This document shows positions 1 through 41,309 of a DNA stretch of 47,680 nucleotides, in pieces. The stretch is taken from contig VGXV01000027.1 of the NCBI GenBank assembly GCA_016873165.1, positions 1 to 47,680 on the forward strand, given 5' to 3'. The notes below the pieces were generated by a model, which had not been told where the DNA came from, searched no databases, and saw only the letters and a list, made by a program, of their open reading frames with translations. The DNA comes from Planctomycetota bacterium. Its GTDB lineage: Bacteria; Planctomycetota; Brocadiia; Brocadiales; Brocadiaceae. A program made the translations under genes and the position numbers. Each line of letters begins with the position of its first letter. Position 1 is the first letter of the stretch.

Positions 1-74
1 TGCTTGCCCTTGGAAGTAAGTCTGCCAAGAGCTTCGCGTTCGTCTTTGGCAAGCGTCACGATGTATTTCTTCAT
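1..74 (-). CDS. IS630-family transposase, N-terminal 24 codons (partial)
   Basis: The reverse strand reads ATG at 74 and then MKKYIVTLAKDEREALGRL, continuing off the left edge. This N-terminus is typical of the helix-turn-helix region of IS630-family transposases, which cut and rejoin DNA at TA targets. A GGGGGA ribosome-binding site lies about seven bases upstream of the ATG. Only the start is visible, so it cannot be judged whether the enzyme is intact. It lies in a different frame from the beta-helix reading frame that it interrupts. Confidence 0.7.
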   Translation of the reverse strand, partial: MKKYIVTLAKDEREALGRLTSKGK

Positions 75-155
75 ATTCAATCCCCCAATGGTTGTGGTTG
101 AAATGAAGATAATATATCACACTATTTGCGACATTGCAAGGTTGACGTGACACTA
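1..155 (-). mobile_element. IS630-family insertion sequence, 5' end only
   Basis: This is the left end of an insertion sequence that runs off the window edge. It carries the first codons of an IS630-type transposase. Homology of the interrupted beta-helix gene stops near 155, next to a TA dinucleotide at 154-155, and IS630 elements insert at TA. The terminal inverted repeat cannot be confirmed because the other end lies outside the window, so the boundary is inferred. Confidence 0.6.
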
Positions 156-1890
156 GCTGTATAATCTGTTTTGCTTTCCAATATCCTTTTTTGCTCGCAG
201 TGATTTTATACGTATCAGTCGTCAAATTATCAAATTCAAAAAATCCGTTTCCGTCAGTAATAGTTGTCTCTTTTATCCCGCTCTTTTTCCCTTTGATTTT
301 TACTTTTACTGATTCAACAGGTTCATTGTTTTCATCTGTTACATTGCCATAAATGCGGCCCGTTTCGCCATGTCCCGTACCGTTATTTTCCGAAACACTG
401 TATTCATCCGCACCTATATCAATTGTATTATTTTGTATTCTGTCTTCTCCATCTATATCATAGTCCCCCACTCCTGATATTTCCTCACCCGCATTGATTG
501 CAGGAGAAGTTGACGATATATGGAGATCAGGCTCATCAAGATTCACAAATACAGGGTCTTTAAAGAGTGAATTCAGGTCATTTCCCGTCTTTTCTTTATA
601 CTCCGTAAATCCCGTATATACCTCATCTTTCCATTGCCACTCGCTGCCACCTTTTCCTGCCGGAGCATAATAGAGGTTGCTGTCAACCTCATTACCCGTA
701 TTTTGAGCATACTCGTTGCTGATAAAAAGGCTTTGTTCATTCGAATAAAAAATATTATTTTTAATTACGTTATCCTTTGTATCGTATGACAATGCAATCT
801 CACCGTTTCCGTCCTGCAACGTATCGTTATTGTACAAGGTATTATTGACTATGGCACAGTCTTCCGTGCTGCCGCGTTTTTCATCGTATCCCCCCATCGC
901 AACACCTGCCATTCTGTTTTTGTAAATAAAATTATTGCGTATGGTAACATTGCTGGCAGACCTATTTTTATGTTCACTGGCTATTTCTACCCCTATATCA
1001 CACAAATAAACGGTATTCATTTCTATAACAATATCTCTGCCGCCATCAACATATACTCCCCCGGCGCTGTAATCTTTTCCATACGCAGGATTATCATAGG
1101 ACGATACATTATAGACGGTATTTTTGCTGACCACCCCATTCCGCGTCTGGTCATACCTGCTATCAAGAGAATCATTCTCAAAACCGATAAAGTCAAGGGC
1201 GATGTTATCGACATCATGAATTATATTGCCGGTTACGGTAAAATCTTCAACATTTCCATTGAATACCAGAGCTTCGCTTGATCCTAATTTCAGGTCGTAG
1301 AGTTCATTCCCTTCAATAATAACATTGCTGAGAGAGGCGGTATCTGATGTGCCATAGACTGCAATTCCATGGGCATCAGCGCCCAATAAGTCGTCATCGA
1401 CCCCGGCATTCGTTTCTATGCCATGTATTTGATTATTTTTAATCTGATAATGGTTTCCCGCTCCTCTTATATGAATACCAACAGGAACAACATCGGTTTC
1501 CGATGAAGTATAATTCCTGATCTCAAAACCCTGTATACAAAGGTAACTCTGATCTTCAATAAAAAACAAACCATTATTCCCTTTTGGAACGACAATGCCG
1601 GTTCCCTCTACCACAGGCGTTTCATCTTCATAATTCCGGAATGTAATATATCCATCCTCCGAAGAACCTGAAACGTTGATAGTCACTGCCTCATTATAAA
1701 TACCGCCCATTACAAACACAGTGCTTCCTGCTTCTGCCGTGTCGGCAGCTTTTTGGATAGTTCTCCATGGTTGAGAAGAAGAACCGGGATAATTGTCATT
1801 ACCATTTGTCGAAACGTAATAATCCTTGCTGAAAGCCGGAATACAGCAGAAGAATATCATTAAAAATGCTCTAATAATATATTCAGGCAT
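1..1890 (-). CDS. Secreted parallel beta-helix protein, 3' end cut by an IS
   Basis: The frame is open from ATG at 1890 to the left edge; genuine homology ends near 155 (about 578 codons), where the IS630 element begins. The N-terminus is a signal peptide (MPEYIIRAFLMIFFCCIPAFS) followed by YYVSTNGNDNYPGSSSQPW and a TIQKAADTA segment, the usual opening of right-handed beta-helix (NosD/DUF1565-like) proteins. The middle contains repeated N-x-I/V turns such as VTIRNNFIYKNRM. Near 370-200 lies a carboxypeptidase-regulatory-like beta-sandwich (GRIYGNVTDENNEPVESVKV). Family members are exported surface proteins, often polysaccharide-binding or lyases. The start codon overlaps the stop of the upstream diguanylate cyclase by 8 bases, so translation is probably coupled. 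The native C-terminus is lost or displaced. Confidence 0.75.
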   Translation of the reverse strand, partial: MPEYIIRAFLMIFFCCIPAFSKDYYVSTNGNDNYPGSSSQPWRTIQKAADTAEAGSTVFVMGGIYNEAVTINVSGSSEDGYITFRNYEDETPVVEGTGIVVPKGNNGLFFIEDQSYLCIQGFEIRNYTSSETDVVPVGIHIRGAGNHYQIKNNQIHGIETNAGVDDDLLGADAHGIAVYGTSDTASLSNVIIEGNELYDLKLGSSEALVFNGNVEDFTVTGNIIHDVDNIALDFIGFENDSLDSRYDQTRNGVVSKNTVYNVSSYDNPAYGKDYSAGGVYVDGGRDIVIEMNTVYLCDIGVEIASEHKNRSASNVTIRNNFIYKNRMAGVAMGGYDEKRGSTEDCAIVNNTLYNNDTLQDGNGEIALSYDTKDNVIKNNIFYSNEQSLFISNEYAQNTGNEVDSNLYYAPAGKGGSEWQWKDEVYTGFTEYKEKTGNDLNSLFKDPVFVNLDEPDLHISSTSPAINAGEEISGVGDYDIDGEDRIQNNTIDIGADEYSVSENNGTGHGETGRIYGNVTDENNEPVESVKVKIKGKKSGIKETTITDGNGFFEFDNLTTDTYKITASKKGYWKAKQIIQLVSRQPCNVANSVIYYLHFNHNHWGIEYEEIHRDACQRRTRSSWQTYFQGQA

Positions 1891-2965
1891 TTTTACCTTT
1901 TTTTTTCTTTTCTTCGTACATCCTCTTATCCGCCTCTGCAATCACTTCATCTATTGAACGCGAATTCAGATAATCACAGCATGCAAACCCCACGCTCACT
2001 GACAACTCATAGGGATTGTTACTCCGGTCATTATACAAATTTATATTATTTTTCAACCTATCGACAATGCCTTCTGCATTTTGATAATTATTTCCTAAAG
2101 AAAAAACAGCGTATTCATCGCCTCCCATTCTCGCAATAATATCCGATTCGCGGAATGTATTCTTCAGGATGTTTGCTGTTTCTATCAGTACAAAATCTCC
2201 TTCTTTATGTCCGTAATTATCATTTATTTTTTTAAAATTGTTTAAATCGATGATAAACAAAAACATCATTTCTTTATTTTTTTTAGCAATTTCCATTTGT
2301 TTTTCCAGAAGAATAAAAAACCCTCTTCTGTTGTATATTTTTGTAAGTTCGTCGGTAATTGACATTCTGTATAATTCCTGGGTTTTTTTTGTCAATTCTT
2401 CTTTTGTTTCTTCCAATTCCTTATTTATATTTTTCAACTCCGCATTTTTTTGAATCGCATTTTCATACGTCGAAATCAAAAGGTCTATTATCTGTATTCG
2501 TTCGGAAGTAACAAAATGTTTCTTCCCTGCAAAAAATATTTCAATGCCAAATTGCGCATTCATATTTCTTCGAATTGTTTGATTTGCCAGAACATAATGT
2601 ATTCTGGACACAAGGAAGCTTTCCTTGTACGGTTTCACAATAAAACTATCAGCTCCGCACGAAAGCCCCTCTACTATATCTTTCGGGTCGGAAAGGGAAG
2701 AACATAAAATAAACGGAATATCTTTGAAATTATCATTCTCCCGAACCTTTCGGCATAATTCATACCCATTCATCTCAGGCATAACGATATCGCTGATAAT
2801 CATCGAGGGTTTTCGTATTTCCATTAAAGCAACCGCCTCGGAGCCGCTCCCCGCAACTGATGCAATATAATTGTTTTTTTCAACAATGTATTTCAGTTGA
2901 GCCGCCTGCGTCGGGCTGTCTTCGACAATGAGTATTTCAATGATTTTATTGTTTTCCTGGCTCAT
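1883..2965 (-). CDS. REC-GGDEF diguanylate cyclase with intact I-site (WspR-like)
   Basis: This 360-residue response regulator makes cyclic di-GMP. The receiver domain spans about 10-125, with phospho-acceptor Asp59 (IISDIVMPEMNG) and the conserved Lys in FIVKPY. A helical linker (about 138-200) follows, then the GGDEF domain (about 201-360). The active-site motif is GGDEY (281-285), a conservative variant of GGDEF, and an RxxD inhibitory site (RESD, 272-275) sits exactly five residues upstream. The start MSQENNK at 2965 is preferred over a longer upstream frame because the receiver begins here and GGAAG precedes it; it overlaps the previous gene by 20 bases. As the operon-terminal regulator it is the likely output of the CheA-REC kinase. 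Paralogue of the next gene upstream. Confidence 0.88.
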   Translation of the reverse strand: MSQENNKIIEILIVEDSPTQAAQLKYIVEKNNYIASVAGSGSEAVALMEIRKPSMIISDIVMPEMNGYELCRKVRENDNFKDIPFILCSSLSDPKDIVEGLSCGADSFIVKPYKESFLVSRIHYVLANQTIRRNMNAQFGIEIFFAGKKHFVTSERIQIIDLLISTYENAIQKNAELKNINKELEETKEELTKKTQELYRMSITDELTKIYNRRGFFILLEKQMEIAKKNKEMMFLFIIDLNNFKKINDNYGHKEGDFVLIETANILKNTFRESDIIARMGGDEYAVFSLGNNYQNAEGIVDRLKNNINLYNDRSNNPYELSVSVGFACCDYLNSRSIDEVIAEADKRMYEEKKKKGKNA

Positions 2966-4022
2966 TCTTCTTCCGTTTCTTTTCATACATAATTTTATCA
3001 GCATTATCCAGAAGCTCATCGATAGTGATGCTTTCTGTAACTTTGCAAAATACCTTACCAATGCTTGCCATAAGCTGAAAAGGGTATTTTGACCGGATAT
3101 TGAAATCATCAATATTATTTTTTAACCGCAGCTCAAGTTCATTTGCGTTTGTTTCATCATGCCCGACTGCAAATACTATAAATTCATCCCCTCCCATGCG
3201 CGCGACAACATAAGAATCCTGATATGTATTCTTAATAATATTTGCCAGATCCTTCAACATCAAATCACCATCGTTGTGGCCATAGGTGTCATTGATACAT
3301 TTCAATCCGTCAACATCAATCATAATAAGCAGCGCCGATTGTTTCTTTCGTTTTGCAATTTTCAACTGTGGTTCCACGATAAAGAAAAACCCGCGCCGAT
3401 TGTACAACGCCGTAAGCTCATCGTATAAACTGATTTTGTGGAGTTCCGCAACCTGTTTTGCAAGCAAGACCTTGGTTTCTTCCAATTGCCTGTTTGTCTC
3501 TTCAAGTTCAATATTTTTCTGAACAACACTTTCATATACAGAAAAAAGCAAATCAATTATCTGTAATTTTTCAGAAGTGAGAAAATACTTTTTCCCTGAC
3601 AAATACAGTTCTATGCCGAATTGCGGAACAGATTGTCTTCTTAAGGCTTCATTTGCAAGAATGTAGCCGATACGGGAAATAAGAAATGCCTCATCGAACG
3701 GTTTTTGTATAAAATGGCTGGCGCCGCATTCTAACCCCTTAAAGATATCCTCCGGTTCGGAAAGTGAGGTAACGAGAATTACCGGGATATTTTTTATTTT
3801 TAATTTTCTGCATAACTCATAACCATCCATTTCAGGCATAACGACATCACTGATAACCAAATTCGGCTGTACGGTATCTACCATGTCTATTGCTTGCTTG
3901 CCGTCACGGGCGACATAAACCCTATAGCTTTGTTTTTCAAGAATATACTTTATGCGTTCAGCCTGTGTCAGGCTGTCTTCGGCAACAAGTATTCTGATCT
4001 CTGCATTATTATCAACTTCCAT
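2946..4022 (-). CDS. REC-GGDEF diguanylate cyclase lacking the I-site (WspR-like paralogue)
   Basis: This 358-residue REC-GGDEF protein is closely similar to its downstream neighbour along its whole length. The receiver has Asp59 (VISDVVMPEMDG) and Lys in FIQKPF. The catalytic loop is canonical GGDEF (277-281). The positions that would form the RxxD product-inhibition site are QDSY (268-271), so feedback inhibition by cyclic di-GMP is probably lost. It ends 20 bases inside the next gene and starts 7 bases after cheB, which points to co-translation. The pair probably arose by tandem duplication. Role inferred from context: a phosphorylation-controlled cyclic di-GMP source in a Wsp-like pathway. 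Confidence 0.88.
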   Translation of the reverse strand: MEVDNNAEIRILVAEDSLTQAERIKYILEKQSYRVYVARDGKQAIDMVDTVQPNLVISDVVMPEMDGYELCRKLKIKNIPVILVTSLSEPEDIFKGLECGASHFIQKPFDEAFLISRIGYILANEALRRQSVPQFGIELYLSGKKYFLTSEKLQIIDLLFSVYESVVQKNIELEETNRQLEETKVLLAKQVAELHKISLYDELTALYNRRGFFFIVEPQLKIAKRKKQSALLIMIDVDGLKCINDTYGHNDGDLMLKDLANIIKNTYQDSYVVARMGGDEFIVFAVGHDETNANELELRLKNNIDDFNIRSKYPFQLMASIGKVFCKVTESITIDELLDNADKIMYEKKRKKNEPGKQ

Positions 4023-4029
4023 AGTAACC

Positions 4030-5106
4030 TCATTTATTCAGTTGCGATGCACATCTGTTTAACGTTAATTTTTCAAGAATGACAGGAATATCATGAATAG
4101 GAAGTATATGGGTTGCAGCCTCAATTTTTTTTGCTTCCGCAGGCATGCCATAAACAATGGAAGTATTTTTATCCTGCGCAATAGTTATCGCGCCTCGTTC
4201 CCTCATCATCTTTAACTCCTGCGCTCCATCTTTGCCCATGCCTGTCAAAAGAACGCCTATAGCCTTTTCACGGATATTTTCTGCCACAGAACGAAACAGA
4301 AATGATGCAGATGGGCACACGCCATTTTCCGGCACACTGTTGTTTTCAAGAAATATAGTTAAATTGCTTTTCACTCCCATATGATGTCCATCGGGGGCAA
4401 AATATACATGCCCCGGCAAAGCGTTTTCTTTGTCGTGTGCCACATGTATAGCAAATGATGTAGTTTTCGCAAGCCATTCAACCATTCCGTTGACAAATCC
4501 CGGAGCAATGTGCTGAACAATTAAGACAGGAACAGGTATTTTCTTATTAAGATTCTTAAGCAGCATTTGAATTGTCTGAGGCCCTCCCGTAGAGGCGCCA
4601 ATTGCTATAAGCTTTAACTTCCCCGCAGCCTCTCTATCTTTCTCTAGTATCACCTCATTTTTGATGCATGTAGCCTGTATTGCTTTATCCGCTTTTGGCC
4701 GCAGAAATTCAGAATTGGACAACAATTTCACCATGTTTGTCAGATGCCGTGAAGTTGTCTCATGGTTTTGATGCTGCACTCCTCCGGGTTTTTCGATAAA
4801 AGCCACTGCACCGGCATCCAGAGCAATAAATGTTTTCTCTTTCTCCTTCGGATTCCAGAAAGAACTCACCATTATAATGGGCAACGGATTTGTTTCCATT
4901 ATCCTGCGGGTGGCCTCAATGCCATCCATTTCCGGCATCTGTATGTCCATAACAACAATATCAGGCCTTTTGGATTGTAAAAATGTCAACGCTTCTTTTC
5001 CATTATTTGCCCTGCCAATCACCGTGATTTTAGGATCATTCTGAAGAATATACACGAGGAGTTCCTGCGCAACAGGGGAATCATCAACCACTAATACCTT
5101 TATCAT
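4030..5106 (-). CDS. cheB: Chemotaxis-type protein-glutamate methylesterase CheB
   Basis: CheB removes methyl groups from receptor glutamates and resets receptor sensitivity; it corresponds to WspF in Wsp systems. The receiver domain (1-120) has Asp54 in VVMDIQMPEMDG. The catalytic domain (about 165-350) shows all three triad residues: Ser172 in IGASTGGP, His199 in VQHIAPGF and Asp293 in GMGKDGA. Its 358-residue length is normal. It lies 7 bases upstream of the first REC-GGDEF gene and 170 bases downstream of cheA, separated from cheA by a small palindromic element. Confidence 0.95.
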   Translation of the reverse strand: MIKVLVVDDSPVAQELLVYILQNDPKITVIGRANNGKEALTFLQSKRPDIVVMDIQMPEMDGIEATRRIMETNPLPIIMVSSFWNPKEKEKTFIALDAGAVAFIEKPGGVQHQNHETTSRHLTNMVKLLSNSEFLRPKADKAIQATCIKNEVILEKDREAAGKLKLIAIGASTGGPQTIQMLLKNLNKKIPVPVLIVQHIAPGFVNGMVEWLAKTTSFAIHVAHDKENALPGHVYFAPDGHHMGVKSNLTIFLENNSVPENGVCPSASFLFRSVAENIREKAIGVLLTGMGKDGAQELKMMRERGAITIAQDKNTSIVYGMPAEAKKIEAATHILPIHDIPVILEKLTLNRCASQLNK

Positions 5107-5149
5107 CGTTACTCCCGTATTGTTGAATAATTATTGACATTTATTTGGC

Positions 5150-5264
5150 TGCAGACTAATGTCATTAAGTTAAGCAACCCTGACAGTATATTATTGGTGG
5201 ATTCGGCGTAAAAAACAACGCCTTAATCCACCCTTTCTTAACTTAATGACATTGGGTTGCAGAC
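5150..5264 (-). repeat. Small MITE-like palindrome between cheA and cheB
   Basis: Terminal inverted repeats AATGTCATTAAGTTAAG (ending at 5174) and its complement (starting at 5237) enclose an inner palindrome GGTGGATT/AATCCACC. The block is flanked by direct copies of TGCAGAC (5150-5156 and 5258-5264), which look like a 7-bp target duplication. The whole forms a long hairpin in the transcript between cheA and cheB. The inner stem resembles the GTAG-GGTGGAT hairpin found at 29521. Confidence 0.7.
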
Positions 5265-5277
5265 AGACACAGAATTG

Positions 5278-7665
5278 CTATATGAATCGTTTTACTGTTT
5301 CCAGGAGATTGCTCTGATCAAAGCTGCTCTTAACAATATAGGCGTTTGCTCCCGCATCTATTCCTCTTTCACGATCTTCACGCGAACCTAATGAAGTTAC
5401 CAGAATTACCGGTATTTCAGATAATTTTTTATCTCCGCGAATCTTAGCGGTAAGAGCAAAACCATTCATACGCGGCATATCCACATCCGAGACTACCAGA
5501 TCATACTCTTCCGTTTTTAATTTTGAAAGACCGTCAATGCCGTCAACGGCCGTTTTCACAGTATAGCCGCCTGATTCAAGAATATTTTTCAACAACATTC
5601 TGGAGGTGATAGAATCTTCCACTATTAGTATTGTTTTCCTTCTTTTCTCACTTGTTTCCTGCTGAATGTCCTTTGCAACGGAAGATGATGAAATATTTAT
5701 TGCGGATTGTATCAGATCATACACATTTACTACCGGCACAACCTCTCCTGAACCGAGGATTGTCGCACCTGCAATATTTCGCACACGCACTAATTGTTTG
5801 CCAAGGCTTTTGACTAATACTTCCTGTTCATCCACTATCTCATCCACACAAAAAGCAATGCGTTTATGAGAAACATTAATAATTAACGTAGCGAGATACT
5901 CAGAATTTCCTCTGTCCCCCGATATGTGTTTTTTCCCATTGGAGATACGCAACACATCCTGCAATTTTATTAAAGGAACAGAATTTCCATCAAAAAATAT
6001 AGTATCTTTGCCCTCGATCTGTTTTATATCATTTGTATTAACGCGCATTGCCTGTTCCACGCTTATTGTCGGTATTGCAAATTTTTGACCTGCAACCCTT
6101 GCTATTATTCCCCGAAATGTAGCAAGTGTTAACGGGAGAACTATTCTGAATGTCGTGCCAACATTTATTTTCGTTTCTACGTGCGCCTGTCCCCCGAGCT
6201 TTTCCGTTTTCTCACGGACTATCGCAAGCCCAAGTCCTCTGCCTGAAATATCTGTAACTATCGGACTTGTAGAAATATCCGATTGAAATACCAGTGATAA
6301 TGCCTCTTTATCATCCATAGAGTTGATATGATCTTCTTTCGCAAAACCGGATTTTATCGCTGATTTTTTTACTTTTTCAATATTGATTCCGGCTCCATCG
6401 TCCGAGATGCGTATTTCCACCTGATTACTATTTGTCTGATGTATTGAGAGAGAAATGGTTCCTTGTGGTTTTTTGTTTCTTCGCAACCGTTCTTCAGTTT
6501 TTTCAATTCCATGATCTATACAATTTCTTACAATATGCATTAAAGGATCTTTTATTTCTTCCAAAATACGTTTGTCAATTTCCACCTCGCCGCCTTTAAT
6601 TAATAAATTTACATTTTTTGACTGATTTCGGGAAATATCACGCACAACTTTCGGAAATCCTTCCAAAACAGAAGAAAACGGCATCATAAGTATCTTCTTG
6701 ACATCTTCAAGAAGTTCGTCTACCATTCCCGCGATCATTCTATGATCACGTTTTGAATTACCTGCTAAACCATTTATTCCCTCTTCCAGCGCTTTAATAC
6801 GGTTATGATTCCATTCCAGGAATTCCATCAGTGAATCACTGTATGCAGGATTCCGTTCCATTCCTTCTTTCCGAGTCTCAGACTTTTCCTGTAATAAAAA
6901 TGTCTTTCGCGCCGAAGAATATACATCCGACCATTTACTGTCCCAATCGCTCATGATGTTTGATATTCTTGATAATTCATTCGCACGCAGCAGTGATATT
7001 TGTTTTAAAGAAAGCATTTCCTCTACTTTAAAAAAAATGGCATCCAGTTTTGCCGCAGCAACTCTCAGCATTTTTGCATGCGATGTTTCTCTTTCGACAC
7101 TATCATTTTTTTGTCCGGCAGCATTTGCCTCCCTTTTTTTCTCAATAAGGTCGTCTTCCTCCATCGAATCTGCAACTCTCTCTTCGGGCAATTCTTTTTC
7201 AGCATTCGTCCCCATGCTTTCATCGACGTACTTTTGAGGATATTCTTCAGAACGAACCGTATCAGATCCATCATCTGATATAAGCCCTTCTATTCGTTGT
7301 AGAAGTTCGGAAATTTCCCGGTTTTCTTCGGGAGAAACAAGTATTTTACTCATACAGTCGACTGCATTGTGCAGGACATCATATTTCCCCACGGACAGTT
7401 TTCGCCCCTCATGTTTCATGGAGGAAAACACCGTTTCGAGCGATTGGCATATTTTCTCAATGCCGGGAAGATTTACTGCCCTCGCTGCGCCTTTCAAACT
7501 ATGAGCTTCACGAAATATCTTTTCGATAATTTTAATCTGCTCATGATGAGGAGGATTTTCCTCCATCTTCAGCAAATCCGCAGACATTTCTTTTATATGT
7601 TCTTCCGCTTCTATTTTAAAGGTAGCCAGCAGTCGTTTTTGAAATTCAATTTCTCTTTCGTTCAT
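5278..7665 (-). CDS. cheA: Hybrid chemotaxis histidine kinase CheA-REC (WspE-like)
   Basis: This 795-residue kinase receives the receptor signal, autophosphorylates and passes phosphate to CheB and the REC-GGDEF proteins. Domains in order: HPt (about 1-110) with His55 in REAHSLKGAARA; an acidic linker (about 140-200); a dimerisation and HATPase region with N-box (VRNCIDHG), G1 (SDDGAGI) and G2 (GRGLGLAIV); a CheW-like regulatory domain (about 530-660); and a C-terminal receiver (677-795) with Asp727 in VVSDVDMPRMNG. The receiver's conserved Lys is followed by Ser (YIVKSS) rather than Pro. The fused receiver is the hallmark of WspE/FrzE-type kinases used for functions other than swimming. It begins 5 bases after the HD-GYP gene. 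Confidence 0.95.
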   Translation of the reverse strand: MNEREIEFQKRLLATFKIEAEEHIKEMSADLLKMEENPPHHEQIKIIEKIFREAHSLKGAARAVNLPGIEKICQSLETVFSSMKHEGRKLSVGKYDVLHNAVDCMSKILVSPEENREISELLQRIEGLISDDGSDTVRSEEYPQKYVDESMGTNAEKELPEERVADSMEEDDLIEKKREANAAGQKNDSVERETSHAKMLRVAAAKLDAIFFKVEEMLSLKQISLLRANELSRISNIMSDWDSKWSDVYSSARKTFLLQEKSETRKEGMERNPAYSDSLMEFLEWNHNRIKALEEGINGLAGNSKRDHRMIAGMVDELLEDVKKILMMPFSSVLEGFPKVVRDISRNQSKNVNLLIKGGEVEIDKRILEEIKDPLMHIVRNCIDHGIEKTEERLRRNKKPQGTISLSIHQTNSNQVEIRISDDGAGINIEKVKKSAIKSGFAKEDHINSMDDKEALSLVFQSDISTSPIVTDISGRGLGLAIVREKTEKLGGQAHVETKINVGTTFRIVLPLTLATFRGIIARVAGQKFAIPTISVEQAMRVNTNDIKQIEGKDTIFFDGNSVPLIKLQDVLRISNGKKHISGDRGNSEYLATLIINVSHKRIAFCVDEIVDEQEVLVKSLGKQLVRVRNIAGATILGSGEVVPVVNVYDLIQSAINISSSSVAKDIQQETSEKRRKTILIVEDSITSRMLLKNILESGGYTVKTAVDGIDGLSKLKTEEYDLVVSDVDMPRMNGFALTAKIRGDKKLSEIPVILVTSLGSREDRERGIDAGANAYIVKSSFDQSNLLETVKRFI

Positions 7666-7670
7666 TGGCG

Positions 7671-8627
7671 CTAACCCCTGCTGCCGAGAAAGGCAACAAA
7701 ACTCCTGAAATACGTTTCGTCAAAATGTTCACCCATGAACTCTTTCATAATTTGCAACGCAGGAAACGGTTTTCTCGCATCCGAATACGGCCTTTTGGTA
7801 GTTAACGCATCATAAACATCTATTATCGCTGCAATTTTCCCGTAATCATGAATCTCATTCCCTTTCAAACCTTTCGGATAACCTTTTCCATTAATTTTTT
7901 CGTGATGATGCAAAACAGGATAGAATGAATCTTCACTAAGACCTCCCAATCCCTTCAATATTTCATGTCCGCATTCCACGTGTTTTTTGATCTCCGCATA
8001 TTCCGATTCATTAAGCTTTCCATTTTTATTCAATGTATTAATGCTGATCTCTGTTTTGCCAATATCGTGAAGCAATAATCCGGCGCCAAAATTATGCATA
8101 TCCCTCCCGCCTATTCTCAAGTATTTTGCGAATAAAAGACCCAATACGGAGACGTCTACGCAATGAGTATAGGTATAATAATCATACGATACCATGTTTA
8201 ACATAGTTGAGGTGGCGTCTTTGTTATTCAGCACATATTCAACGGTATTTGATACCCAATTTTTTGATCTTTCAACATTATCGCCGGCACGCGGGTCGTT
8301 AAATATGTCAATCATAATGGACTTTGCCACATTATATACCATCTTTGATTTTACATTTGTGTCTATGGCCGGGTCGTGAATTACCAGTTTCAACTGAGAC
8401 TCCATATACCGCAAATATAATTTTTCTTCACTTTGTCTGATAAAAAGAAATTTTATCTGATTGTATATAAGTTCCTTTATTTTATCGTCTTTAAGAGCAT
8501 TCGCCCCGTTGCAGTATAAAACATAACGTATATCTACGTCTGCCCTGGTTTTTATGTAAAGGTTACATCCGGTGCAGGTATTGGGTTGTATTGTGTTTAG
8601 GGCTATGGGTATATATTCATCTATCAT
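7671..8627 (-). CDS. HD-GYP cyclic di-GMP phosphodiesterase
   Basis: This 318-residue protein has an N-terminal regulatory region (1-130) of unknown fold and a C-terminal HD-GYP domain. The metal-binding HD pair is His187-Asp188 (LLHDIGK), followed by HHHEKINGKGYPKGL with GYP at 249-251 and the DVYDALTTKRPY segment, all typical of active HD-GYP enzymes that hydrolyse cyclic di-GMP. The N-terminus contains CTGC (18-21), whose role is unknown. It has no membrane segment and no receiver of its own, so it may be controlled through its N-terminal region or through the signalling complex. An HD-GYP gene is not part of the canonical Wsp set; here it sits between cheW and cheA. Confidence 0.9.
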   Translation of the reverse strand: MIDEYIPIALNTIQPNTCTGCNLYIKTRADVDIRYVLYCNGANALKDDKIKELIYNQIKFLFIRQSEEKLYLRYMESQLKLVIHDPAIDTNVKSKMVYNVAKSIMIDIFNDPRAGDNVERSKNWVSNTVEYVLNNKDATSTMLNMVSYDYYTYTHCVDVSVLGLLFAKYLRIGGRDMHNFGAGLLLHDIGKTEISINTLNKNGKLNESEYAEIKKHVECGHEILKGLGGLSEDSFYPVLHHHEKINGKGYPKGLKGNEIHDYGKIAAIIDVYDALTTKRPYSDARKPFPALQIMKEFMGEHFDETYFRSFVAFLGSRG

Positions 8628-8656
8628 AATATATCGTATGAATTCTTATTCCTTTA

Positions 8657-9190
8657 TCACACTTCCTCACATACAATAATCGATTTGTCTGTTAACATAT
8701 GCTCGGCATCCAATATAACCAACTGATCTTCAGTTACGCCTTTTATGTACTTTCTGGCATGTTCTGGCATCGTCAGCGGTGTCGATACAATTTTGTCGGA
8801 AAGAACAGATTTTACTCCTGCTATCGAATCGGCAATAATGCCGTATTCCATATGTTCATTCCGGATAATTATCACCCTGTTCAGGTTTGATATTCCCTTC
8901 CCTCTGGGAATATGAAAGAACATTTTTATATCGATAACGGAAAATATCTGCCCTCGCACATTCACAATTCCCATAACATAGTCCGGCACTCCCGGAATTT
9001 TCGTAATGTCTTTTATTAAAAACACTTCACGGACAAAATCTGTCGGAATGCCATATTTGTCATTATCAACAATAAATTCAACTATGTTTACATACTGTAA
9101 GCCTTCTTTCCGAACTGCCGGTTCTTGCGCGAGTATTTTGGCCCTCTCTTTTAGAATTCTTTTTCGATCTTTTATTTCCGATTCGGACAT
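8657..9190 (-). CDS. cheW: CheW-like scaffold protein (second copy)
   Basis: This 177-residue protein is a single CheW domain with a charged N-terminal helix of about 30 residues. Typical features are IVEFIVDNDKYGIPTDFVREV, the segment IPGVPDYVMGIVNVRGQ and VIDIKMFF. CheW bridges the receptor tip and the CheA regulatory domain. Wsp operons also carry two CheW proteins on either side of the receptor/CheR genes, as here. It lies between the receptor gene and the HD-GYP gene, 66 bases from the receptor, separated from it by a GTAG hairpin. Confidence 0.93.
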   Translation of the reverse strand: MSESEIKDRKRILKERAKILAQEPAVRKEGLQYVNIVEFIVDNDKYGIPTDFVREVFLIKDITKIPGVPDYVMGIVNVRGQIFSVIDIKMFFHIPRGKGISNLNRVIIIRNEHMEYGIIADSIAGVKSVLSDKIVSTPLTMPEHARKYIKGVTEDQLVILDAEHMLTDKSIIVCEEV

Positions 9191-9211
9191 CGGGCGTTCC
9201 CTTCAAAAACA

Positions 9212-9238
9212 GAGACAGGTTTGAAACCTGTCTCTACT
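9212..9238 (-). repeat. GTAG-type REP hairpin (AGACAGGTTT family)
   Basis: On the minus strand GTAG is followed by the palindrome AGACAGGTTTCAAACCTGTCT, lying between the receptor and cheW genes. An almost identical unit occurs at 30093-30121. It could act as an intra-operon terminator or stabiliser of mRNA ends. The GTAG plus hairpin layout matches REP elements. Confidence 0.75.
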
Positions 9239-9256
9239 ATATTCGCAGATGTGGTT

Positions 9257-11248
9257 TTATATTTTGTATTTCTGAATCAACTTTTTAAGTCTTTGTCCCA
9301 GATTATTCAAATTGTGTGCTTCTTCTTCCAGTTGTTTGGAACTTTCCACATTTTGTGACGTTGCCGTTTTTATATTTTCCATTGCCGTGACTACCTGTGT
9401 TATGCCCGACATTTGTTCGCCACTCGATGCGGCAATCTGCGTTGCCGCCTGAGACGCAAGTGAAATGCTATTGCGAAGTTTGTGAATGGATTTTCCCGCC
9501 TCACTGGTAAGTTTTACTCCATTGTCAACAACTTTGCCGCCCTGCTCGGTTTTCAACACCGCCTCATTTGTCGCTTTCTGGATATCGTTCAATATTTTTC
9601 TTATTTGCATGGTTGCCTGCTTGGATTCTTCTGCAAGATTCCTTACTTCCTGCGCAACCACGGCAAACCCTTTCCCCTGCTCGCCTGCCTTTGCAGCCTC
9701 AATGGCGGCATTTACCGCCAGCAGATTTGACTGTTCCGCAATATCGTCGACCGTGGCAATGATAATGCCGATTGCATGGCTTTGTTCACTAAGCTTGATA
9801 ATACTTTCCGCAATGGAGGACATCTGTTCTTTTATACTATTCATACCTTCTATTGTCTCATTCACCGCTTTTTCCCCGCCCTCGGAAATCTCTGCGGCGC
9901 CCTGAGCGCTGACGGAAACCTGTTTTGTTTTTTCGGTGGAAAAGTGTGTTGTCTGCCGGAATTCCTCAATTGTCGCAGTCGTCTCTGTCACGGCTGTCGC
10001 TGTTTCTGTTGAAGTTGTTGCCAGTTCGGTTGTTGCTGCAAGTATTTCACTCGTCGAAGAAGCAAGGACGTTCACCCCTTCTGCAATCTCCATAGTTTGT
10101 TCGCGTAAGTTTTCAACCATATTTTTCATAGCAGTAAATAACTGACCTACCTCGTCACTGCCGCTGATCTCTATTTTTATTGTTGTATCACCTTCTGAGA
10201 TATGTCCCGCATAACGAACTGCCATGCTCAAAGGTCGTGTGATTCCGATGGAAATTATATACGCAAATAGTACGGAAGCAAACACGGCGACAGTTGTCAA
10301 AATTATAAAGAAAATAAACGTTGTTTTTGAAGCATCCCATATTTTCCGGGAATTAAGCACCAGATCTTCCGATAATTTGTCTTCAACCCCCTTTAAAAGA
10401 TTTATTTTGCCCGTTTGCATCTTGAACCATTCCGATGGTTCTACCCCAAACATGCCTTCGGCATGCTTTTCAACCGCAATATTTCTCATCCTTAACGCTT
10501 CGTCCACATACTTATTATTTAAACTGGCGCTGAAATATTCATTTTGTTCCGCAGTCGCCAGGCCTTTGAATATATTCAAATAAATTTCCTGCCTTGTGAT
10601 ATTATCCCTGAATTTACTATACATTCCATTTTCAAATCTGTTTGCTGCAAACACACTGCAAAGGTATGCCCTTTCCAGACCTGCCAGTTCCTTTGTCATC
10701 AAAAAATTTACGTATGCGGAAATCTGTTTAAATAATTCCGTATTGGTGCATAACGTGGACAATATCGCTATCACATCTAAAAATTCGGCATTGAGACGTG
10801 TATAGTATTCGATTCCCTCTTCTGTGGTAACAGCCAGAGAATCGATCTCCCCCCTTTTATCCTTCATAATCGAGACAAGATGAAGCGCCCTCTCCAGTGT
10901 AATGCCGATTTTCGTTCCATACCGATCTAGCTGGATTCTGTTCATTATGTTTTTCAATTCAACCACCTTCTGATCGGCAGCCTGTCTCTGATCTCTGAGC
11001 TCATTGGAAAATTCTTTTCCGCCGCTTCCGATATATAAAGCGGAAGCTCCCCTCTCCTTTTGTGTTTCGTGAACGAGTTTACTGATATAAACGGCAAATT
11101 CTGATAATGATTCCAGATTTGCCATCTCGTTTGACACCGAGTGTTTTTCCAGAGTGCCGATAACCGAAAAGTACAACATGACGCATATTGGCACTATCAA
11201 CAGTATTGCAAGTTTATATTTCATCCTTACATTATTAAGTATTTTCAT
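9257..11248 (-). CDS. NIT-domain methyl-accepting chemoreceptor (WspA position)
   Basis: This 663-residue receptor has TM1 at about 13-31, a periplasmic sensor (about 40-305), TM2 at about 310-333, a HAMP domain (to about 390) and a cytoplasmic signalling domain. The sensor carries both conserved blocks of the nitrate/nitrite-sensing NIT family: [17 protein letters not shown] (59-75) and [18 protein letters not shown] (188-205). The signalling hairpin [20 protein letters not shown] is fully conserved. No C-terminal CheR-docking pentapeptide is visible; the protein ends QKYKI. NIT domains are known to bind nitrate or nitrite, so the receptor probably reports these ions to the CheA-REC kinase. 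It is flanked by cheR and cheW in the same operon. Confidence 0.92.
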
Positions 11249-11264
11249 AATTTGTTCCCATATC

Positions 11265-12821
11265 TCATGATTTTAAATGGATAATGTCCTGCAATAACAC
11301 CGAATTTCTGCTGCTTATCATATGAATTATTTCTTTTAACCTTCCGGCGGTTATTCCCTCTGATTCGGGCAGCACTTCTTCCGGTTTATAATTTTTCAAA
11401 AGCAAAAGGGTATTCTCATAATACCTGAAAGACTCTTCCGGTTTTTGCTGTTCCAGCGTAAAATTTCCTAAAGCAAAATGAGCAAGTATAAAATTCGGAT
11501 CAAGATACAAAACCTGTTTTAATGATGCTATGGCGCCATCCGTGTTTTTCTGTTCGTGAAGAATTGTCGCCCGCAAATAATAATAATTGGGTTGCAGTTT
11601 ATCAGCCTTTATTGCGTTATTGCACCATTCAAGGGCATCTTCTATTTTTCCCTGATTCGCATATGATTTTGCGAGAAGATACATAATGACGTCACGCTTT
11701 ATTTGTAATTCGTTTTTATTATCGGGCATGGAAGAATAAAGTTTCATGAGAATATCCGTTGCTTCTCCGTATAAACCCTTTTCAAATGATTTTAATGCTT
11801 CTTTATATAATAATTCTTCCTCCGGCTCTTGTCTCAATTCCCGAAGAATTTTATTGCCGGCCAAACTGTCCAACTGTGCAGTTTCACCGGATATTTTTTC
11901 AAATTCGTATCTCTTTTTTACCGGATAAGCACCTTCATCAGCAAATATTTTTTTCTGACTAATACATTTTGCAATTATTTCTTTTTTATAGAATGTTTCG
12001 CCAAGATAATTAACCGGACGGAAATCGTGTTCGCGGCATTGCAGACCTTCGACCGGGCTCACCACCAGCCACCCGTTTTCAACAAGCGAGCGATAGAATT
12101 TATGCAATATCTCTTTTATCAACTCATTGCTAAAATAAATAAATACGTTACGGCAAAAAATTATATCCATCGCGTTTGTATTATTCAGGATAGAAGGATA
12201 AACATCTTCCTTCAGATTGAGGGGAGAAAAAACAACCATTTCTTTTATATGGGGCAAAATAGCATATTTGTTTCCCTGAGTTAATGTAAAATAATTGTTT
12301 ATAATCCATTCGGGAGTTTCCCGAAATGACCATTTTCTGTATAATCCGTCAGAAGCTTTTTTGAGAAAATTCTGATTAATATCGGTGGCCAGAATCGTTA
12401 TGTCCCAATCTCTGATATCCCGGATCAATTTATCAATTACTATTGCCACAGAATAGGGTTCTTCGCCGGTAGCACAACCTGCAACCCAAATCCTCAGTCT
12501 TTGATCTCTCCCTCTTCTGGATGCAATCAAGTCGTGTAAAATATTTTTTTCAAGAACCTCAAAACTGTTTTTATGACGAAAAAAATATGTTTCGCCCACC
12601 GTTAAATGATTTGCAAGCAGTGAAACATCCTTTTGCGTTAATGGCTCAGAAAGCAACCACTGCAGAAACAATTCAACATCATCATACCCAAAATCATCCG
12701 CAGCCAACCCGATATGGCGTATCAAATGATGCCAACGGTCTTTTTCATAACGCAATCCCAGTTTCTCAGAGATTAAATCACAAAATCGATTGAGTAACTG
12801 TTCCGGTATTTTTTGTTTCAT
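11265..12821 (-). CDS. cheR: Chemoreceptor methyltransferase CheR with TPR repeats (WspC-like)
   Basis: This 518-residue SAM-dependent methyltransferase methylates receptor glutamates. The N-terminal CheR helical domain includes [11 protein letters not shown] (72-82), the SAM-binding motif is [12 protein letters not shown] (113-124), and [11 protein letters not shown] marks the catalytic core. Residues from about 335 to the C-terminus form tetratricopeptide repeats (for example [20 protein letters not shown] and [19 protein letters not shown]). The TPR extension is characteristic of WspC-type CheR proteins in alternative-function chemosensory operons. It lies between the first cheW and the receptor gene, with short gaps on either side. 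Confidence 0.94.
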
Positions 12822-12854
12822 TGTGTATCTTTCGAATATTCCTCAATCAGCGTA

Positions 12855-13334
12855 TCATTTTATTGAAATTTCTGCCCTTTCCAATGCCTCTTCCTCTGCT
12901 ATTGACAAAAATTTCTCAATATCACAAATAAACGTCAAACCATCATTGGCCCTGAATATTCCCTGAACAACATCGGCATTCTTTGCGATATCTTCTGCAC
13001 AAATAATTTCTTCTCCCTTTATTACCCCCACAATTGTATCTGCGGTGATAATGACCGTGCGTTTCCTGGTATTCAGGACGATCAATTTGTCATCAATATC
13101 CACTTCCCTATCTTTTATATGTAATCTTTTTCTCATATTTATCACCGGAAGCACCCTTCCCTGTACATTAATTACCCCTAAAATAATATCAGGAGCAGCG
13201 GGAAACGGAGTAACTTCCACTGCGCGAACGATTCTTTCCACCGCAGTGTGCATCACCGCAAATCTTTGACTTTCAATCGTAAAAACAACAAGATATTCAT
13301 TATCCATTTTTATATCGTAACCATTTAACTGCAT
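12855..13334 (-). CDS. cheW: CheW-like scaffold protein (first gene of the chemosensory operon)
   Basis: This 159-residue single CheW domain (FTIESQRFAVMHTAVERIVRAVEV, then DIILGVINVQGRVLPVINMRK) couples the receptor to CheA. It is the promoter-proximal gene of the operon. Start choice is uncertain: ATG at 13334 has GGGGAG some 13-19 bases upstream, and a second ATG nine codons in (MDNEYLVVF) matches the domain start better. A C-terminal Glu-rich tail follows the domain. It is divergent from the gene at 13635. Confidence 0.9.
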   Translation of the reverse strand: MQLNGYDIKMDNEYLVVFTIESQRFAVMHTAVERIVRAVEVTPFPAAPDIILGVINVQGRVLPVINMRKRLHIKDREVDIDDKLIVLNTRKRTVIITADTIVGVIKGEEIICAEDIAKNADVVQGIFRANDGLTFICDIEKFLSIAEEEALERAEISIK

Positions 13335-21259: not shown

Positions 21260-21505
21260 TTAACCCATTCGCGCAGAGAGATATCTAATAATACCCTCAA
21301 TTGTGGAAAGTTTCCCGTAATCGGCCTCAGGAATTTCTATACCAATCTCCTCATTAATAGCGATCAGGAATTGAAGAAAGTCATAAGAGTCGATATCCAA
21401 TTCTTCACGAATATTTGCATTTTCCGGTAATTCTCCAAGATCAGCTTCGGGAGCAATTTTTGTTAAATGTTTATTGATAATTTCCCTGATATTTTTTTCC
21501 GTCAT
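21260..21505 (-). CDS. Acyl carrier protein, dehydrogenase-operon type
   Basis: This 81-residue four-helix acyl carrier protein has phosphopantetheine attachment at Ser40 in IDSYDFLQF, where most ACPs have DSL. It is acidic as expected. It overlaps the E2 gene by four bases, so it is made with the dehydrogenase rather than with fatty-acid genes. Inference: it may accept or carry the acyl product of the complex or of the adjacent AMP-forming ligase. It could also simply be an extra ACP for lipid or polyketide use. Confidence in family is high, in role low. Confidence 0.88.
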   Translation of the reverse strand: MTEKNIREIINKHLTKIAPEADLGELPENANIREELDIDSYDFLQFLIAINEEIGIEIPEADYGKLSTIEGIIRYLSARMG

Positions 21506-22734
21506 AGCATTGATACCTCCTGCAAATATCGTTTCATCGACCCTAAAAATTGCGCGCCGCGATTCCCGTCAGTCGCACGATGGTCAGCCGCCAGCGTTGC
21601 CGATAAAATTCTTCTGATTCCCAGCATCCCGTTCTCCGCCCAAGGCATTTCCGAAATCCTGCCAAAACCAACCAACGCCACCTGAGGCGGATAAATAACT
21701 CCATAGACGGTTTCCACCCCTAAATCGCCAAGACTTGTAACCGTAACCGTAGCATCTGTCATTTCCGAACTTCGAAGCCGCCCGGCACGGGTGCGTGCAA
21801 TAAGATCGCTCATTGCCGCCATTAATTCATCAATGCTTTTTTTATCGACATTGTGAATCGCAGGAACAACCAATCCGCCTTGCCGAAGCGATATGGCAAA
21901 TCCGATGTGTATTTCATCTTTCATCTGATGGCGCTCATCAATCCAATAACCATTCAACCCGGGAACGTCTTTAAGGGCACGTGCGACAGCTTTTAACAAA
22001 AGAACCGCAGGTAAAAGACGTTCCTTTATCGATCGTTTCTGATTTTCCGCTTCAAGCCATTGAAGCGCGCGGGTCATATCAATACGGGTTTCAAGATAAT
22101 AATGCGGAATATCCCTGTTAGACCGGGACATTGCCGCCGCTATCGCCCGACGCATACCGGCCTGATATTCAACCTCTTTCGGCATCTTCGCCTTTTCCGT
22201 CACAGGTATTTTCTTTTTCAACTCTCTTTCCTTTGCCGCTTTTTCCACATCAGCGCGATTTATTATCCCATCGGCACCAGACCCTTGTATCGTACTTACA
22301 TCAATGTTAAGCTCCTCAGCCAATTTCCGTGCCAATGGAGATACTTTAAAATGCTTTTTCCCTTCTAATACTTCAGGAAGTGGAGGAACAGGTTTTTCCT
22401 GAACAAGAACCTTCTCTGGTTCCAGTTTTAACGCTGTTTCTTTTTTCTCTATTACCTGTCCTTCTACAATCTTCTCCTCTTTAGTTTCCGAAGGTTCTTT
22501 CATGGAACTAATAATCGCCAGGACTGTGCCAACAGGAACATTTTTTCCCTCCGGCACAATGATCTTATCAACGACTCCTTCCTCAAATACTTCAATTTCA
22601 ATAATCCCCTTGTCTGCCTCTACCACGGCAATGATATCGCCCCGTTTAATGAAATCGCCCGGTTTCACTTTCCATTCAATGAGTGTAGCTGCCTTCATAT
22701 CAGCGCCCAGGCTCGGCATACAAAACTCAGCCAT
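21502..22734 (-). CDS. pdhC: 2-oxoacid dehydrogenase E2, dihydrolipoamide acyltransferase
   Basis: This 410-residue E2 core enzyme transfers acyl groups from lipoate to CoA. The single lipoyl domain (1-80) has Lys42 in EADKGIIE. A charged linker is followed by the peripheral subunit-binding domain (about 131-170, [13 protein letters not shown]). The catalytic domain ends with His385 and Asp389 in [10 protein letters not shown], the acyltransferase active site. E1alpha and E1beta overlap upstream and an ACP overlaps downstream. Substrate is most likely pyruvate given the neighbouring acetyl-CoA synthetase, but acetoin or a branched oxoacid cannot be excluded. Confidence 0.92.
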
Positions 22735-23731
22735 TTTTTCTTACCATCCTTTTCACGGTTGTTACAATTGTCTCCGTTTGCGGCAATGCGGCCTGTTCCA
22801 GATGACTTGCATAGGGCATTGGCACTTCGGCAGTGCAAATGCGCTCAACAGGACAATCCAACTCATAAAACACCCCTTCCATAATACGGGCGCTCACTTC
22901 GGCTGAAATACTCCCGCTGCGCCATCCCTCGTCTACGATAAGAGCCCGGTGTGTTTTGGCAACCGAAGAGAGATATGCCGCATCGTCCAGCGGACGCAAT
23001 GTACGAAGATCAATAACCTCCGCGCTAATGCCGCTTTTTTCCAGAATATCCGCGGCATCCAATACTTTATACAGACTCGCCCCATACGTAATAATCGTTA
23101 TATCATTTCCTTGTCGGCATATACGGGCATGGTCAATATCCACCGCGCCCGCGTCAACTGATAATTCTCCTTCCCTGTTATAGAGCGTGGAATTTTCAAA
23201 TATAAGAACAGGATCAGGGTCCGCAAGGGCAGTCCACAACATGCCACGCGCATCTTCGAGGGTAGCGGGAGTAAGCACTTTAATGCCGGGAATATGTGCA
23301 TACCACCCTTCCAGACTATGAGAATGCTGAGCTGCCAACTGTTTCCCTCCCCCTGTTGCCATGCGTATAACGAGAGGCACGTTGAATAAGCCACCGGACA
23401 TGTGTAAATACGTTGCCGCGGTGTTAAGTATCTGGTCTGCAGCAAGGAGACTGAAATTTACCGTCATAATTTCAACGATGGGACGCATACCGCCAAGCGC
23501 CGCCCCTATACCGGCTCCTACAAATGTTGATTCAGATAATGGCGTATCGCGTATCCGTTCAGGGCCGAATTCCTCAAGCAAGCCTTTGCTTACGGCAAAA
23601 CAACCTCCATACCGCCCAACATCTTCCCCCATCAAAAAAACCCTCTCGTCCCTGCGCATCGCTTCCCTGATAGCCTCCCTAATCGCATCTCTGTAAGTAG
23701 TTTTCACCGTTTCTCGTGTTTTCCCGTTCAT
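22727..23731 (-). CDS. pdhB: 2-oxoacid dehydrogenase E1 component, beta subunit
   Basis: This 334-residue E1beta pairs with E1alpha to decarboxylate a 2-oxoacid with thiamine diphosphate and reductively acylate E2. Family features include [20 protein letters not shown], the [20 protein letters not shown] loop and the C-terminal [13 protein letters not shown]. Length and sequence fit pyruvate or acetoin dehydrogenase E1beta. It overlaps E1alpha by 4 bases and E2 by 8 bases, so the three are translationally coupled. Confidence 0.93.
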
Positions 23732-24735
23732 GTTCTCTTTCTCTCCGAATAGACAAACCGGGTTAAATCTTCAACAGGTTCCCATGTTCCCGCTTCAGCG
23801 AACGCCACCGCATCGTTAACTTCCTTTTCCACTTTCATTTCCAATTCTTTTATGTTTTCATCATTTATCAGGCCCTGCTTTATTAAACGATGCGCAAATG
23901 TATCGATAGGATCGCGCTTTTTCCATTCTTCCACCTCTTCCTTTGTCCGGTAAAGCTGAGGATCAAACATCGAATGCGCGCGAAACCGGTACGTGCGAAA
24001 TTCCAGAAAATACGGTCCTTTACCACCTCTGACATATTCAACCGCTTCTTTTGCTGCGGACTCAACAGCCAGAATATCCATCCCGTCAACAGATGCAGAG
24101 GCAACAGCGTAACTTTCCGCTTTTTTTGACAAATCCGCCACAGAATGCGAATATCTCAATGCCGTGCCCATAGCATACAGATTATTTTCACAGAAAAACA
24201 AGACAGGGAGTTTCCAGAGCGCGGCAAGGTTTAATGATTCATGAAATTCCCCTTCCGCGACAGCCCCGTCTCCGAAGAGACAACACGTAACATTCTTTTT
24301 GCCCTGCATCTTGTCTGCAAGGGCCAAACCTACCGCCACAGGAAGCCCGCATCCGACAATGGCATTTCCTCCGTAAAAACGCGTTTTCGCGTCGAACAAG
24401 TGCATAGAACCGCCGCGGCCTCTGCTGCATCCCTCCTGTTTTCCATACATTTCCGCCATAATAGCGCCGGCGCTAATTCCACGCGCCAATGCCTGCCCGT
24501 GTTCGCGATAGGTTGCAACAATCGCATCTTCCGGTTTGAGCGACTGCATTACACCGACGGCCACCGCTTCCTCTCCATTGTATAAATGCAAAAAGCCTCT
24601 GATCTTCATTGCACTGTAAAGTTCCGCCGATTTATCTTCAAAACGGCGAATAAGCAACATCTGATACAACAAATGCAAAGCGTGTTCACGACTAATTTTA
24701 TCTGTTTCTTTTTGAGTTGTTTCCTGTTTATTCAT
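23728..24735 (-). CDS. pdhA: 2-oxoacid dehydrogenase E1 component, alpha subunit
   Basis: This 335-residue E1alpha carries the thiamine-diphosphate motif [19 protein letters not shown] followed by NN (about 155-187) and the conserved [16 protein letters not shown] phosphorylation-loop region. [11 protein letters not shown] is typical of PdhA/AcoA. It begins with ATGA overlapping the acetyl-CoA synthetase gene by 4 bases. It works with the next gene product as an alpha2beta2 heterotetramer in the cytoplasm. Confidence 0.93.
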
Positions 24736-29960: not shown

Positions 29961-30263
29961 TGTAACACTTTAGTTTTTTGAAAAATTGCCCATGTCTTAA
30001 CCCCATGCTTCAGCATGGGGTTAAGGGGAGAAATAATCATGGGCTTCAGCCCTGAGGTAAAGTCAGCCCAATATCTTTTACTGTACCAGGTTGTAGAGAC
30101 AGGTTTCAAACCTGTCTCTACCAAAGCCGGTGTATTTATTGTGGATATCTCCGCACTAAAGTGCGGAGTTAATGGAGGTAAAATTTGCTCCATGCTCCAA
30201 TATTAGAGGCGCCTTATAAAATAAGGGAAACCGATGTCTTTTTCAAAAAGCTAAAGTGTTACG
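29961..30263. repeat. MITE family A, copy 2 (303 bp, 6-bp target duplication)
   Basis: The ends match copy 1 at 17240 (TGTAACACTTTAGTTTTTTG at left, the inverted form at right; the terminal right base is G instead of A). Direct repeats ATTTGT flank it at 29955-29960 and 30264-30269. The insertion split a sequence that is uninterrupted at 33617-33642. Internal cargo differs from copy 1: a CCCCATGCTTCAGCATGGGG stem, a GTAG hairpin (30093-30121) and a GCACTAAAGTGC palindrome. Confidence 0.85.
30093..30121 (+). repeat. GTAG-type REP hairpin (AGACAGGTTT family, second copy)
   Basis: GTAG followed by AGACAGGTTTCAAACCTGTCT and then CTAC forms a perfect palindrome. It shares its stem with the unit at 9212-9238, but here it is carried inside MITE family A. 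Confidence 0.75.
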
Positions 30264-38867: not shown

Positions 38868-38908
38868 ACGCACTCCTTTCTTGTCTGTTTATTCAAAACT
38901 TCCGTATT

Positions 38909-41265: not shown

Positions 41266-41276
41266 ATTAATTAAAA

Positions 41277-41305: not shown

Positions 41306-41309
41306 ATCT

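Follow-up and report, generated by a model that had tools for sequence, protein, structure and literature searches.

Which stimulus does a chemosensory operon of a Brocadiaceae bacterium report, and through which output? The question is raised by a gene cluster in a 47,680-nucleotide stretch from a Planctomycetota bacterium (GenBank assembly GCA_016873165.1, contig VGXV01000027.1; "the window" below refers to this whole stretch), which a sequence-only reading had described as a Wsp-like operon with a nitrate/nitrite (NIT) receptor and a built-in cyclic di-GMP phosphodiesterase. Nine co-directional minus-strand genes, from 13334 to 1883, encode, in this order, CheW, CheR-TPR, a NIT-HAMP-MCP chemoreceptor, CheW, an HD-GYP protein, CheA-REC, CheB and two REC-GGDEF proteins. 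We take them, with confidence that is about evenly balanced, to be a chemotaxis-type signaling operon of the alternative cellular function (ACF) class, neither flagellar nor Wsp proper, in which a signal would run from the NIT domain through CheA and the REC-GGDEF proteins to cyclic di-GMP.

The NIT receptor and the operon that encodes it

The proposal that the sensor is a NIT domain held up well: the receptor scores 183 bits (E=1.4e-53) where the Pfam cutoff is 24.9, covering model positions 1 to 238 of 239, and the same region matches NasR (4AKK) with E=1.9e-16. The nitrate pocket of NasR has two arginine motifs, and both are present here, one in helix 1 (Q63-K-E-R66) and one in helix 5 (G190-L-E-R193); a third arginine of the domain, R255, is also retained, and the pocket motifs are kept in the corresponding receptor of the genus-mate G030. 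In NasR itself, E175 and R176 of helix 5 have been named as predicted pocket residues (PMC7496416), and the nitrate site lies at a G-x-x-R motif, one glycine of which is replaced by glutamine in NasR, resulting in a QxxR/GxxR arrangement (PMC8199190). Between the host and G030, the ratio of nonsynonymous to synonymous substitutions (dN/dS) is 0.09 for the NIT region and 0.04 for the signaling part of the receptor.

The receptor thus shares with NasR and the NarX-type nitrate and nitrite sensors a NIT domain with both arginine motifs, but NasR is a soluble antiterminator, whereas here the domain sits on a chemoreceptor. McpN of Pseudomonas aeruginosa is likewise a chemoreceptor with a GxxR-type nitrate site (PMC8199190); it differs in having a PilJ domain instead of NIT and in its output, which is chemotaxis rather than cyclic di-GMP. 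Separately, we noted, in family f4, proteins of ~1300 amino acids (L196, L197, L200 and L201) that start with a NIT domain in which the helix-1 pocket arginine is replaced by C, H or L; as judged from these replacements, nitrate binding may be lost in them.

The features of the locus, all on the minus strand except for the palindrome, to which no strand is assigned, are as follows (aa, amino acids).

12855..13334, minus: CheW 1, the first gene of the operon, 159 aa; Pfam CheW E=5e-23; 72% identity to G030
11265..12821, minus: CheR-TPR methyltransferase, 518 aa; Pfam finds CheR (E=3e-49) and, C-terminally, TPRs
9257..11248, minus: NIT-HAMP-MCP chemoreceptor, 663 aa, with NIT at aa 57-296, HAMP at 336-383 and MCP signal at 447-628; Pfam NIT and NasR matches as given above
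9212..9234, no strand: one of the 23 exact host-genome copies of the palindrome GAGACAGGTTTGAAACCTGTCTC, between the MCP and CheW2 genes
8657..9190, minus: CheW 2, 177 aa; Pfam CheW E=1e-26
7671..8627, minus: HD-GYP protein, 318 aa, without a receiver domain; Pfam HD_5 E=3e-22, also HD
5278..7665, minus: CheA-REC hybrid kinase, 795 aa; Pfam Hpt, HATPase_c, CheW and REC
4030..5106, minus: CheB, a REC-methylesterase, 358 aa; Pfam CheB E=2e-57 and REC
2946..4022, minus: REC-GGDEF 1, 358 aa, by Pfam; GGDEF intact, inhibitory RxxD lost (QDSY)
1883..2965, minus: REC-GGDEF 2, 360 aa with the ATG at 2965 as start, by Pfam; GGDEY, with RESD as inhibitory site; 82% identity to G030
1..1890, minus: possible tenth gene, a secreted right-handed beta-helix protein with a CarboxypepD_reg domain

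Every operon domain scores far above its Pfam cutoff, including the NIT, HD-GYP and GGDEF domains for which profile searches had been suggested, and on sequence inspection the key catalytic residues of the operon proteins are kept. In CheA, the Hpt residue H55, the ATP-site motifs and D727 of the receiver domain are invariant in an alignment with eight relatives. The genes either overlap or are separated by 5 to 66 bp, with the exception of the 171 bp between CheA and CheB, and no terminator-like site was found in any gap between operon genes. A promoter scan returned a 10/12 match 52 bp upstream of the first gene, which is weak, in a region that barely exceeds shuffled sequence. Nothing in the window reached the gathering threshold in an Rfam scan, and there is therefore no known cyclic di-GMP riboswitch.

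The ten genes previously counted between 1883 and 13334 are in fact nine, since the tenth open reading frame, that of the beta-helix protein, lies from 1890 downward. Its start overlaps the 3' end of the gene for REC-GGDEF 2 by 8 bp, and its own 3' end passes into foreign, apparently transposase-like sequence where the contig stops; the corresponding site in G030 has just a C-terminal stump of the beta-helix gene (L058 1056-1358). For REC-GGDEF 2 itself, the start is most likely the ATG at 2965 rather than an upstream TTG at 3112.

The two cyclases are 51% identical to each other and are therefore paralogs. The RxxD inhibitory site that is lost in REC-GGDEF 1 is kept (RESD) both in REC-GGDEF 2 and in the G030 copy of REC-GGDEF 1. 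While the presence of two REC-GGDEF genes was confirmed, their tandem arrangement is less unusual than had been thought, as a metagenome-assembled genome of the Coprothermobacterota (L134) has one too; the two cyclases here are 36 to 42% identical to its tandem REC-GGDEF proteins over the full length, with 41% for REC-GGDEF 1.

Wsp membership and the wider operon family

The Wsp R-system (Pseudomonas WspA-F and WspR) has the same parts, namely, two CheW proteins, CheR-TPR, a CheA-REC hybrid, CheB-REC and a REC-GGDEF output, all recovered here by Pfam, and presumably the same logic, with a receptor array acting through CheA-REC and REC-GGDEF on cyclic di-GMP. This identity of parts is what would speak for a canonical Wsp system having been transferred into the lineage, and it is also the portion of the Wsp-like layout that stood. 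Gene order, on the other hand, differs: the canonical operon of the Pseudomonas genome that served as our reference (L184) reads MCP-CheW-CheR-CheW-CheA-CheB-WspR (see also PMC8552884), and a survey of Wsp systems requires the wspA-B-C-D-E-F synteny to be conserved and to open with the receptor gene (PMC8552884), whereas the order here is CheW-CheR-MCP-CheW-HDGYP-CheA-CheB-R-R. In a FastTree phylogeny of concatenated CheA/CheB/CheR sequences from 59 operons, the operon falls inside a cross-phylum clade with a support of 0.99, and Pseudomonas Wsp, to which these three proteins are just 30% identical, falls outside it. The REC-GGDEF proteins are 23 to 24% identical to WspR of L184, compared with 41% to L134. 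The sensor is a NIT domain instead of the 4HB_MCP type of WspA (PMC8846402), and while Wsp systems are known from beta- or gammaproteobacteria (PMC8552884), the host order here holds genomes with hydrazine synthase. Finally, the operon has two cyclases and an HD-GYP gene, another departure from Wsp (PMC8552884, PMC8846402). Gene order, the core tree and the sensor domain led us to reject Wsp membership, and we consider transfer of a canonical Wsp system highly improbable. As the best-studied model, Wsp may still serve as a mechanistic analogy that describes a possible way of working but not membership.

The single-direction core gene set and the grouping in the tree with the widespread CheW-CheR-CheW-MCP-CheA/REC-CheB operons instead fit an ACF-type operon. 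Within the 0.99 clade, the tree does not settle the placement (support, 0.26 to 0.86), and neither vertical descent nor transfer is asserted here. A swap of sensor and output within an operon inherited in its present order was dropped as a scenario, as the core tree does not place it particularly close to those of G033, G038-G041 and G025. Rhodospirillum centenum Che3, which was outside our tree sample, is comparable in having two CheW proteins, CheR, an MCP, a CheA-REC hybrid, CheB and a nonchemotactic role (PMC3868531); its outputs are the histidine kinase CheS3 and CheY3, without GGDEF or HD-GYP proteins.

How rare the combination is was assessed in 80 relatives from other genomes, chosen by CheA similarity, with a neighborhood of 9 kb; some contigs are short, so that counts of neighbors are lower bounds. 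Within these neighborhoods, at least 3 relatives have an HD-GYP gene, at least 21 a GGDEF gene and at least 41 a histidine kinase. A NIT receptor was found in none of the 80 with a model built in this analysis, and Pfam, run on 10 of their 13 large unassigned receptors, found no NIT domain in any of these. REC-GGDEF outputs recur in operons of the same type (L134, L151, L152, L159, L162 and L166), of which that of L134 shares the core genes, CheA-REC, CheB and the two tandem REC-GGDEF genes but has a dCache receptor, no HD-GYP gene and its MCP after the second CheW. The host order also contains operons of this type (G002, G033, G025 and G038-G041); those of their receptors that were checked are dCache proteins, apart from one extra, Tll0287-like receptor in G033, and the outputs vary among hybrid kinases, REC-GAF, a GGDEF-PilZ protein and REC-HD-GYP. 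Across the phylum, NIT receptors occur in 26 of 392 genomes. Among the neighborhoods examined outside the genus, L229 is the one that combines a NIT receptor with a full CheA-REC core, and it contains no cyclic di-GMP enzyme; on G025 C229, a CheW-CheR-CheW-NIT receptor series is visible before the contig ends. In summary, the operon combination is unusual, while its core is ordinary and belongs to a widespread family. Our literature search gave no paper describing this operon or linking NIT receptors to cyclic di-GMP in anammox bacteria, and the main text of a 2022 review of cyclic di-GMP network inputs is silent on nitrate and nitrite (PMC8846402).

Conservation and loss in the genus

All nine genes are present in the same order in G030, with 69 to 87% identity. 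For the pair of host and G030, dN/dS ranges from 0.07 to 0.20 across the nine genes, which are therefore under purifying selection between the two species. The single-contig genome of a second genus-mate, G031, has no NIT domain. Its syntenic locus, identified by the same neighbor genes, holds an N-terminal stump of CheW1 (L080 8809-9027), a decayed, frame-shifted CheW2 (L080 9087-9700) and an intact HD-GYP gene (80% identity; L080 9721-10689; dN/dS 0.12), while nothing remains of CheR, the receptor, CheA, CheB or the two cyclases. Because these remnants lie at the syntenic place, the operon is, from the sequence comparison, most simply regarded as ancestral to the genus and lost in G031, with the HD-GYP gene kept under constraint. 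With a complete operon in G030 and an almost clean deletion in G031, a comparison is possible without genetic tools.

Proposed signal chain and stimulus, and the HD-GYP gene

If the operon works as proposed, the NIT domain, outside the inner membrane, would bind nitrate or nitrite between R66 of helix 1 and R193 of helix 5, and binding would alter CheA kinase activity by way of the HAMP domain and the MCP hairpin. Phosphate would pass from CheA to its own receiver domain, to CheB, which would counteract CheR in adaptation, and to both REC-GGDEF proteins; these, once phosphorylated, would make cyclic di-GMP, one without and one with a product-inhibition site. The HD-GYP protein would degrade the messenger, so that the operon would encode both synthesis and removal; as it has no receiver domain, it probably sets a background level rather than being switched by CheA. 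In this scheme, we infer the identity of the ligand, whether it raises or lowers the signal, the transfer of phosphate, the activity of the enzymes and the role of cyclic di-GMP as output. In Escherichia coli, a repellent response corresponds to a more active CheA. Since a NarX-Tar chimera, going by a title cited in PMC8396549, responds to nitrate and nitrite as repellents, the ligand would be expected to raise cyclic di-GMP.

The suggestion that the host senses its own energy substrate depends on its being an anammox bacterium. Both genus-mates have hydrazine synthase, as do six of the seven other relatives checked, so that the group is anammox, and the host is a probable anammox bacterium as well. 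Its own 191-contig assembly yielded no hydrazine synthase, whether the query was the Pfam model or the complete HzsA-like protein from G031. As the gene occurs in two copies in several relatives, G031 among them, this absence is likely an assembly gap, probably a collapsed repeat.

Several points weigh against the proposed chain. AlphaFold, run on the single sequence of the NIT region, reached a predicted local distance difference test (pLDDT) score of 38 and gave no usable pocket geometry. A NIT domain was found in 18 of the 62 genomes of the order and was missing from the other 44, among them one genus-mate, all eleven genomes of genus g3 and all three of genus g6; NIT-based sensing is therefore no general anammox trait. 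The anammox-nitrite rationale is weakened by this and by the lack of hydrazine synthase in the host assembly, although both genus-mates have the enzyme. A NIT domain also need not mean a response to nitrate, because WspA with an exchanged outer domain still senses surfaces (PMC8846402). The HD-GYP ortholog, finally, stands alone in most of the family and outlives the rest of the operon in G031.

Part of this evidence bears on the possibility that the operon controls cyclic di-GMP but answers to another stimulus, with the NIT fold binding some other small anion or ligand, or with the membrane part responding as Wsp does to surfaces. The function of NIT is known essentially from NasR, related operons place the same core behind dCache or four-helix sensors, and the WspA chimeras and the 44 genomes without NIT point the same way; against it stand the NasR pocket motifs, which are kept in the window receptor and in G030, unlike in several f4 NIT domains, and the purifying selection on the NIT region. 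We regard such a different stimulus as possible but rather unlikely. It is also only tentatively that we propose an anammox nitrogen-oxyanion chemoreceptor array feeding directly into cyclic di-GMP synthesis, with a phosphodiesterase of the same messenger in the operon. If the receptor does bind nitrite, the energy substrate of anammox would be coupled to a messenger that governs aggregation in other bacteria, and, if true, such coupling would matter for granule formation in wastewater reactors. The comparison further illustrates how different phyla put one chemosensory core to repeated use, with sensors and outputs that can be interchanged.

As for the HD-GYP protein, it matches PmGH (4MCW, E=1e-25) and Bd1817 (3TM8, E=2e-16 over aa 4-301) in the PDB, the latter being what its N-terminal half resembles, and the metal ligands and the HD, HHE and GYP motifs are kept (H155, H187-D188, K191, H216, H241-H242, GYP 249-251 and D273). 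The gene does lie inside the operon; whether the phosphodiesterase is built in is more doubtful, as the lack of a receiver domain, the stand-alone orthologs and the survival in G031 make its membership in the pathway uncertain. Orthologs with 53 to 58% identity are found across the family, usually adjoining an HD-GYP gene of ~570 aa and away from chemotaxis genes. A general phosphodiesterase gene that came to be placed in the operon as a passenger, outside the NIT pathway, would account for these observations, including its intactness in G031 after CheR, the MCP, CheA, CheB and both cyclases were lost, but not so readily for its identical place between CheW2 and CheA in both operon-bearing species or for the mere 5 bp that separate it from CheA. 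Being compatible with the remainder of the proposed chain, a passenger role strikes us as a real possibility, if somewhat short of an even one. Alternatively, the protein might bind the REC-GGDEF cyclases as an adaptor and hold them in check, in the way that RpfG acts on unphosphorylated WspR in Lysobacter. That complex shows that a chemosensory diguanylate cyclase and an HD-GYP protein can cooperate, though by another route (PMC9758175), and the gene here is colocated with REC-GGDEF genes; RpfG, however, is a REC-HD-GYP protein of a separate diffusible signal factor (DSF) system, the N-terminal half of the protein here is a different domain, and its retention in G031 without cyclases runs contrary to a purely adaptor role, which we consider unlikely.

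Returning to the proposed NIT-to-cyclic di-GMP chain, the host has four NIT receptors, the most among the 62 genomes of the order, and three of them lie near cyclic di-GMP enzymes: that of the operon and those on C45 and C3. The C45 cluster (L022 5314-15741) reads CheW-CheR-CheW-NIT MCP-CheA/REC-CheB, followed by a stand-alone receiver and a PAS-GGDEF protein, and neither genus-mate has a counterpart of the NIT domain of this second chemosensory operon; on C3, the NIT receptor is clustered with a REC-HD-GYP gene. In G038 and G042, NIT receptor genes directly adjoin a GGDEF gene without a chemotaxis core, and a wider link between NIT and cyclic di-GMP in the family is suggested.

Several minor observations were made along the way. 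NIT chemoreceptor genes at or near large GGDEF genes (1077 to 1312 aa), again without a chemotaxis core, were seen at L236-L239 (G025, G042 and G038). A PilJ-domain chemoreceptor occurs together with CheW and a REC-HD-GYP gene on host C5 (L027 5301-9079); PilJ binds nitrate in McpN, and this cluster is possibly another nitrate-to-cyclic di-GMP link. The perfect palindrome GAGACAGGTTTGAAACCTGTCTC is found genus-wide (9212-9234 and 30096-30118 in the window, L058 1323 and L080 5503), with no copy of the reversed control in the host genome; half of it is present in the MCP-CheW2 gap of G030, and it looks like a repetitive extragenic palindromic (REP)-type element. Elsewhere in the window, translations inspected by eye indicate a V/A-type ATPase operon (38409-45987), part of which adjoins the lost chemosensory operon in G031, and one minus-strand run (21502-26492) of pyruvate-dehydrogenase-like E1 alpha, E1 beta and E2 genes beside an acyl-CoA synthetase-like gene.

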